64,000 bases of DNA, taken from NCBI GenBank assembly GCA_013377095.1, contig JACAAY010000006.1:1-64000 (forward strand), read 5' to 3'. The position numbers and the translations under genes were made by a program. This document shows, piece by piece, positions 2-5,592 of this stretch. The stretch is from Desulfuromonadales bacterium (lineage in GTDB: Bacteria > Desulfobacterota > Desulfuromonadia > Geobacterales > Pseudopelobacteraceae). Within the stretch, counting starts at the first letter, position 1. Every line of letters starts with the position of its first letter. The notes under the pieces are model-generated. The model was not told the DNA's origin, made no database searches, and worked only from the letters and a program-made list of their open reading frames with translations.

Positions 2-121
2 TTCGTCGTTAATCAGCGGGGTAGAGTATATGAGAAGAACCTGGGGCCGAAAACCGCAGAGATCGCGCGCAAGATGAAGAACTATAATCCTGATCTGACC
101 TGGAAGTTGGTAAATCAGTAA
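2..121 (+). CDS. DUF2950 family protein, C-terminal fragment
   Basis: Only the last 39 codons and the stop lie in the window; the gene starts before base 1. The readable C terminus contains the stretches KNLGPKTAEIARKMK and NPDLTWKLVNQ. They match the end of the complete DUF2950 protein at 39301-40275 almost residue for residue (that copy ends NPDLTWKLVEQ), while the DNA differs at many third codon positions. This is therefore a diverged paralogue rather than a recent copy. DUF2950 proteins are exported proteins of unknown function, often encoded beside DUF3300 proteins. Whether a DUF3300 gene also precedes this copy cannot be seen here. Confidence 0.85.
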   Translation, partial: FVVNQRGRVYEKNLGPKTAEIARKMKNYNPDLTWKLVNQ

Positions 122-706
122 ACGCTATCAACAAAACTTGTTATCACTGCTCTCAGTGTTAAGCCGCTTTCAGTGTCTGTTTGAGATATAACTTCAATCC
201 GACACTATAGTAAAGCCATGCAGCTGTTTATAACCAAGGGGAACACCAACATTCATGCAATAAGGGCCATCTGTGGTTGTGCCTCATTCTCTTTCTCTGC
301 CCTTCTGCAAACTCTCCTGCTTGTACTAAAATTACACGAAAAACGTTAGTATCACGCAGATTTATCGCTATATAATTGCTCTCAAAAAAACAGTTGCAAT
401 TAAAACATGTGTATAATACGTTTGTTTCAAACAATCGTTTGCTTTGACACAGAGAAGATTGCGCATAGATGCACAACGCTTAATGACATTTCGATTTTTA
501 ATTTGTTTAAAAATTTTCAATTCATAGTTTTTTCGGCGCCGCAATTTAGCAAATGCGATTTCAGATCATAAATAGCATGTTCCCAGCCCCCCATCTTTAA
601 TGCAGACTCATATCGGGTGGTAAACAGTCTGCACGTAAAAAGCAATTCGTTAACCATAGAAAGACGTTGTCGATGGCATTGCAGCAAGTAGGGAGGATTG
701 AAACTA
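122..706. other. AT-rich intergenic region
   Basis: About 585 bases lie between the DUF2950 fragment and the small leader-like gene. The stretch is AT-rich. A minus-strand open frame at 228-476 has no ribosome binding site and a composition typical of non-coding sequence, so it is not called. I see no tRNA, riboswitch or clear terminator. The promoter for the gene at 707 presumably lies here but is not obvious. Confidence 0.5.
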
Positions 707-1054
707 ATGAGCAACGAAAAATCTTTTATCCAAGATGATGTTGTGGCGGAGATTCTGCAAAGAGCAAAAAAGGATACAGATTTCAAAAAGATGTTATTTG
801 ATAATCCTCAGGAAGCCCTAAGTCAATTCGGCGTTACCATTCCGATTGCTTACGGCAAGAATTACCTGGAAACGGTGTACACGATGTATGACCGGTCAGA
901 GTTTTATAGATTGTTTCACCTTAACATCCTGAATGAAATCAGGGGTGATACCGTTATAATGGCTCCGGGTCCGTGTGTTGTCGCAACCGATCATGAAGAT
1001 ATGGATTGGGACTTTGAGGTTACAAATTATAAAAACAAATCAACTGAGCTTTGA
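707..1054 (+). CDS. small protein with nitrile-hydratase-leader-like N terminus (possible RiPP precursor)
   Basis: A 115-residue protein. ATG 707 is preferred over TTG 698 because GGGAGG at 691-696 sits 10 bases before the ATG but only 1 base before the TTG. Residues 9-43 (ILQRAKKDTDFKKMLFDNP, then ALSQFGVTIP) resemble the NHLP/Nif11-type leader region of ribosomally made, modified peptides: a helix with A-x-x-D-x-x-F-x-x-x-L-x-x-xP followed by a G-x-x-x-P step. The C-terminal part has an APGPC segment and an acidic stretch DHEDMDWDFE but no repeated core. The single cysteine and the lack of any cyclodehydratase, lanthionine synthetase or radical-SAM gene nearby leave its maturation open. It could instead be a stand-alone small protein sharing the nitrile-hydratase alpha-like helix. 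It appears monocistronic. Confidence 0.55.
   Translation: MSNEKSFIQDDVVAEILQRAKKDTDFKKMLFDNPQEALSQFGVTIPIAYGKNYLETVYTMYDRSEFYRLFHLNILNEIRGDTVIMAPGPCVVATDHEDMDWDFEVTNYKNKSTEL

Positions 1055-5241: not shown

Positions 5242-5592
<351 letters not shown>

Follow-up and report, generated by a model that had tools for sequence, protein, structure and literature searches.

Precursors of the nitrile hydratase-like leader peptide (NHLP) and Nif11 types have been described in anaerobes with leaders of 66–85 residues and cores of 14–59 residues, the core often following a Gly-Gly motif (PMC4289311), and a cleavage motif of the Gly-Gly type is likewise described for the end of NHLP leaders (PMC2887384). 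The 81-residue leaders of MprE-type NHLP precursors are reported to have a stable fold and to be bound by their enzymes in this folded state (PMC12455567), while Haft et al. point out that a precursor can be encoded at a distance from its enzymes and that certain NHLP members belong to species in which no modifying enzyme is known (PMC2887384). Herein we describe a gene at positions 707–1054 of a 64,000-nucleotide stretch of DNA (the window; contig JACAAY010000006.1 of the Desulfuromonadales assembly GCA_013377095.1, contig C198 in our set), whose 115-residue product (P0001) we tentatively read as a divergent, mobile and solitary NHLP-clan precursor, in which a folded leader of ~82 residues would carry a flexible tail of ~33 residues that is modified in trans. 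The relevant features of the locus are as follows.

707–1054, forward strand, stop codon included: gene for the 115-residue NHLP-clan-like protein (open frame, full-length relatives, and nonsynonymous divergence, dN, below synonymous divergence, dS).
691–696, forward strand: ribosome-binding site GGGAGG, read from the sequence, with the ATG 10 nt further on.
734–847, forward strand: NHLP-type helical leader segment, residues 10–47, aligned with positions 3–40 of the 77 in profile TIGR03793.
716–952, forward strand: folded part in the AlphaFold2 model, residues 4–82, comprising three short helices and most of a long one.
953–1051, forward strand: predicted disordered C-terminal tail, residues 83–115, the candidate core (predicted local distance difference test, pLDDT, under 50).
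998–1033, forward strand: residues 98–109, the best-conserved stretch of the tail, with 9 of 12 positions identical in all five members (alignment A2).

Window 707–1054 is a real coding gene. At the place originally given, the frame is open over 115 codons plus a stop, and it is kept in full-length relatives that share 53–63% identity with the window protein (tblastn). dN was lower than dS in all ten pairs of the five intact copies, over the full length as well as from residue 85 to the end; within residues 47–84, dN exceeded dS in three of the ten pairs and was about equal to it in two, these short stretches being noisy. An MS(N/D) start is common to all five relatives (alignment A2); the alternative TTG start at 698, taken from a mechanical list of open reading frames (ORFs), directly abuts GGGAGG. 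The gene lies at the 2.8th percentile of G+C among the 348-nt stretches of the window, and promoter-like sites were found at chance level only.

The helix pattern of NHLP-type leaders that had been noticed near the N-terminus was borne out by profile searches. TIGR03793 matches residues 10–47 (E 2.3e-8, 33.8 bits), and both TIGR03793 and NF038399, the model of the Os1348 family, match all five members at E ≤ 1, with a best E of 1.9e-4 for the latter; its 21.5 bits stand against a cut-off of 40, which leaves the protein outside that family. Shuffling the protein gave no match to any NHLP model (0 of 6 shuffles), and three of the six shuffles gave other chance matches (E 0.02–0.12). The protein is thus NHLP-clan-like by its leader and no formal member of TIGR03793, the three places in its own genome that this profile finds all lying below the cut-off. 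Pfam NHase_alpha also matches weakly (E 0.024), and the CxxCSC metal site of nitrile hydratase is absent, as the protein has one Cys and two of the five members have none. The label Nif11-like, in contrast, did not hold: no Nif11 model in Pfam or NCBIfam matched at E ≤ 10, and we reject membership of that family.

An AlphaFold2 model built from five alignment rows (mean pLDDT 72.7; predicted template modelling score 0.57) suggests how the protein is divided. It is confident over residues ~4–80: ten-residue blocks from residue 11 to 80 have pLDDT values of 84–93, helices are modelled at residues 10–22, 24–32, 34–39 and, as one long helix, 53–85, and the protein as predicted consists of a folded leader (~82 residues) and a flexible tail (~33 residues). 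The original prediction had set the leader-like helices apart from a 70-residue remainder considered too long for a core; this misread the boundaries, since the model remains folded up to about residue 82 and only residues 83–115 are disordered, so the predicted fold suggests that the supposed remainder comprises the latter half of a long leader and a short tail. The earlier interpretation is supported in its NHLP resemblance and, as detailed below, in the orphan status of the gene, and fails in the Nif11 assignment and the leader/tail boundary.

Comparisons with solved structures point the same way, weakly in the predicted fold. The best solved chain for the family profile was the NHLP precursor 9cjx (weak, E 0.026). 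Foldseek against the PDB returned no match at E ≤ 0.001, and its first four rows, three chains of Os1348 and the proteusin precursor MprE7, were weak (E 0.85–3.5). With VIA-align, Os1348 scored Z 4.4 (root-mean-square deviation, rmsd, 3.8; 59 aligned), MprE7 Z 3.7 (rmsd 3.1; 56 aligned) and DprE2 Z 3.1 (rmsd 3.2; 58 aligned); unrelated rows at Z 3.7 and 3.4 interleave with these, and since the model is helical, such values are by themselves no proof. Taken with the profile matches, they are consistent with an NHLP-type N-terminal bundle.

The 82 + 33 layout falls within the lengths of NHLP/Nif11 precursors but does not match their Gly-Gly motif. Like NHLP/proteusin precursors (TIGR03793; MprE7, 8tb1; DprE2, 9cjx), the protein combines an N-terminal helical segment, a long leader and a tail of core length; unlike MprE7 as described in PMC10858898, the second half of its leader is modelled as one long helix without beta strands. 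Os1348 (NF038399; PDB 6lk7) resembles it in the profile match of all five members and in heading both structure comparisons, if weakly, yet is shorter (85 against 115 residues) and has a shorter tail, and it is reported from a four-gene cluster beside efflux genes (PMC7726476), whereas our gene is solitary.

Relatives are few and scattered. Within the class, 5 of 277 genomes match, one of them (G251) with a remnant only, and full-length copies number two in the window's own genome, where a paralog on contig C91 is 62–63% identical along its length, and one each in a further three class genomes (G137, G252 and G253). Two of 141 genomes matched in the order, searched with a two-row profile; with the single protein as query, one of two genomes matched in the genus and one of 76 in the family, in both cases the own genome, which was also the single match among 395 genomes sampled evenly across the phylum. 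The five intact proteins are 53–94% identical in pairs and share 45 invariant columns, 23 in residues 1–46, 11 in 47–82 and 11 in 83–115, the tail being marked by the motif WDFEVTxYK; in G252 and G253 the tail is five residues shorter and has lost its PGPC stretch. We found no description of this protein family in the literature searched.

The copies have a G+C of 0.40–0.45 in surroundings of 0.52–0.58, each start is preceded by a purine-rich stretch resembling a ribosome-binding site, and DNA similarity between loci ends a short distance outside the gene, ~100 bp upstream for the window and G137 copies and ~40 bp for the paralog with G253 and G252. Neighbourhoods differ, and no partner gene is common to the five intact loci. 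Viral contigs and phages gave no match, the only plasmid match was weak and partial (residues 13–46, E 0.3), and repeats around the five copies amounted to short, chance-like pairs only. Two contig scans with narrow peptide patterns found nothing, which is weak evidence, as these patterns would likely miss the G137, G252 and G253 proteins too.

Some details of individual loci deserve mention. G253 (L029) and G252 (L030) share upstream blocks of 243 bp and 57 bp, contiguous in G252 and separated in G253, and in G253 a MATE-like transporter gene (recognized by eye) lies between the upstream block and the gene. The G251 remnant (L031, 694–771, reverse strand) retains the last ~30 codons, and its adjoining DNA is found several kb away in G252; it illustrates gene loss. 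Just beyond the G137 precursor gene lies a Fic/DOC family gene (L019, 3–428, forward strand; PF02661, E 7.4e-13).

The only direct lead to the chemistry comes from G137, whose homolog (L019, 663–995, reverse strand) lies 217 bp from the divergently transcribed gene of a 606-residue enzyme (L019, 1213–3033, forward strand). This enzyme matches TIGR03975 over its full length (499.7 bits against a cut-off of 281.85), has Radical_SAM above and B12-binding just below the Pfam cut-off, and carries a CX7CX2C motif, which has been reported for PoyC-type enzymes, being present in the C-beta methyltransferases that act on bottromycin and on the proteusin polytheonamide (PMC5682303). Judged by sequence, it is a B12-dependent radical S-adenosylmethionine (SAM) C-methyltransferase (RCMT) of ribosomally synthesized and post-translationally modified peptides (RiPPs), of the PoyC kind, and a candidate maturase. 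By a rough estimate (two neighbours in some 3,700 genes), such an adjacency is unlikely for a random gene. It is nevertheless a single case, weakened by the situation in G138 and by a differing G+C, as set out below.

Layout and relatives together suggest a precursor-like protein; a standard NHLP bacteriocin is made less likely by the absence of Gly-Gly, by a tail that is conserved and by neighbourhoods that have no gene in common. We infer a modification of the tail, its agent and a release or export along the following lines: the helical leader would dock on a maturase encoded elsewhere, this maturase would modify the tail, most plausibly at the conserved W/F/V/T/Y of WDFEVTxYK, and a protease that does not need Gly-Gly would release the product, or the modified small protein may stay whole. 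In G137 the RCMT would be the maturase.

A number of observations weigh against such a precursor. Unlike NHLP/proteusin precursors, the protein scores below the curated TIGR03793 cut-off (33.8 against 50.9 bits), contains no Gly-Gly cleavage site anywhere, has a conserved rather than hypervariable tail, and has no adjacent maturase or exporter; the tail's only Cys is missing in two of the five members, and all structure matches by Foldseek and VIA-align are weak, the nitrile hydratase and proteusin rows included. Among the 277 class genomes, close homologs of the RCMT (E ≤ 1e-40) are present in five (G137, G138, G139, G013 and G112), and thus in only one of the five carrier genomes, G137. G138 keeps an RCMT that is 81% identical, in other surroundings and with no precursor near, so the enzyme can stand independently of such a partner, and the G+C of the G137 precursor gene (0.447) differs from that of its RCMT (0.517) and contig (0.519), which makes a chance adjacency possible. 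In the own genome, none of 14 TIGR03975 matches exceeds the cut-off (best 113 bits), in contrast to the full-length match and CX7CX2C motif seen beside the G137 homolog. None of its 57 ATP-binding cassette matches to the exporter model TIGR03796 does so either (TIGR03794 and TIGR03797 were not searched genome-wide), and YcaO is absent from all five carrier genomes, with the control positive in E. coli and four archaea.

Specific candidates fared as follows. YcaO azoles are rejected, given that none of the five carrier genomes has a YcaO, and so is a family-wide lanthionine chemistry, given the single tail Cys that two members lack. Scanning of the six best TIGR03975 matches of the own genome identified one HpnJ over its cut-off and one BchE below, the other four matching no family at E ≤ 1e-60, and we reject an RCMT in this genome; the G137 enzyme itself found six distant matches there (best E 6.9e-12, 26% identity). 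An own-genome exporter is rejected as well: of the three best TIGR03796 matches, two score highest with MsbA models and one with a model of SmdA type, all below the respective cut-offs, and the alignment of the best match to TIGR03796 starts only at profile position 141, so that the N-terminal part is not covered. The suggested search of the own genome for maturases was thus answered for YcaO (none) and TIGR03975 (none over cut-off), LanM and radical SAM epimerases not being searched. Near the G252 and G253 copies no maturase was recognized among the ORFs, save a generic radical SAM gene in G252 (L030, 12090–13220), which is on the precursor's strand with an aldehyde-dehydrogenase-like gene (by eye) in between; it matches generic models only (33.1 against 600 bits) and was dismissed as a partner.

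Two further RCMT loci were seen in genomes other than the carriers. In G112 (L046, 6167–9397, forward strand), an 89-residue peptide with a repetitive hydrophobic tail and weak NHLP-clan matches, a radical SAM protein resembling YydG (119.9 bits, under the cut-off) and an RCMT are encoded in a row, likely an ordinary radical SAM RiPP cluster. In G013 (L045, 5749–10393, reverse strand), a homolog of the RCMT is flanked by a radical-SAM-like gene (by eye) on one side and the gene of a 537-residue protein on the other; this homolog shares 33% identity with the G137 enzyme.

Among other explanations, the one that survives best, although we regard it as rather unlikely, is that a leader-like helical domain has taken on a new role as a small stand-alone protein, in binding or regulation for instance, and is never modified. 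This would fit five intact loci without a shared partner gene, a tail held under dN < dS in all ten pairs, the missing Gly-Gly site and an own genome in which the tested maturases and exporter are absent or below cut-off, and Os1348, itself a small protein of the NHLP clan, is reported to form a dimer and, as unmodified recombinant protein, to be without detected antibiotic activity (PMC7726476). The folded-plus-disordered layout is however that of a precursor, and one copy adjoins a RiPP C-methyltransferase. We consider it improbable that the gene is a remnant or stray precursor, which has lost its maturation cluster and persists or moves as a decaying passenger; the patchy distribution, the low G+C, the reduction to ~30 codons in G251 and the elevated dN of residues 47–84 in some pairs are what decay would leave, but five intact frames at 53–94% pairwise identity, full-length dN < dS in every pair and the purine-rich stretch before each start speak against it. 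A split-borosin arrangement, in which the helices form a borosin binding domain and the tail backbone is methylated in trans by a SAM-dependent N-methyltransferase, is very improbable: inspection recognized no such methyltransferase beside the copies (the genomes were not searched for one), and the structure comparisons list no chain described as a borosin protein, which excludes nothing.

The tentative reading as a solitary precursor can also be taken further, to a version that we hold to be a long shot. Here the gene would found a new family of solitary NHLP-clan precursors with a fixed product, in which an enzyme acting in trans modifies the WDFEVTxYK tail, perhaps a B12-radical SAM enzyme that C-methylates it, to give one defined cofactor- or signal-like molecule instead of a diversifying antibiotic, the gene travelling as a single-gene cassette that uses resident enzymes of its host.

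The surroundings add context. Since the contig begins with the first base of the window, neighbours more than 706 bp upstream of the gene are out of view; the own genome comprises 5.26 Mb in 241 contigs and is listed as 100% complete and 5.56% contaminated. One further feature lies upstream.

2–121, forward strand: C-terminal part of a DUF2950 protein whose gene is truncated by the contig boundary, context only (PF11453, E 1.3e-12, profile positions 238–274 of 274).

Between this fragment and the gene are 585 bp without a recognized gene, and downstream, on the opposite strand, glutamine synthetases and a P-II protein were recognized by eye. A P-II type gene is found within a few kb of both own-genome copies (window 5242–5580, reverse strand, by eye only; L004, 2914–3228, reverse strand, PF00543, E 1.3e-9). 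This proximity is probably a coincidence, and we set a nitrogen link aside because G137, G252 and G253 showed nothing of the kind. In line with the absence of a modifying enzyme or exporter noted for the window, the contig has no TIGR03975-type radical SAM match and its three TIGR03796 matches cover the ATPase part only. The gene is an orphan in the window, as is the paralog on its contig, and apparently the G252 and G253 copies are too.

If the tail is modified in trans, the precursor gene would be moving alone, unaccompanied by those of its enzymes, and would be overlooked by methods anchored on clustered maturases; if the tail is unmodified, an NHLP-type leader fold would be serving as an independent protein. 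The G137 pair of precursor and C-methyltransferase, 217 bp apart, allows a direct two-gene test.
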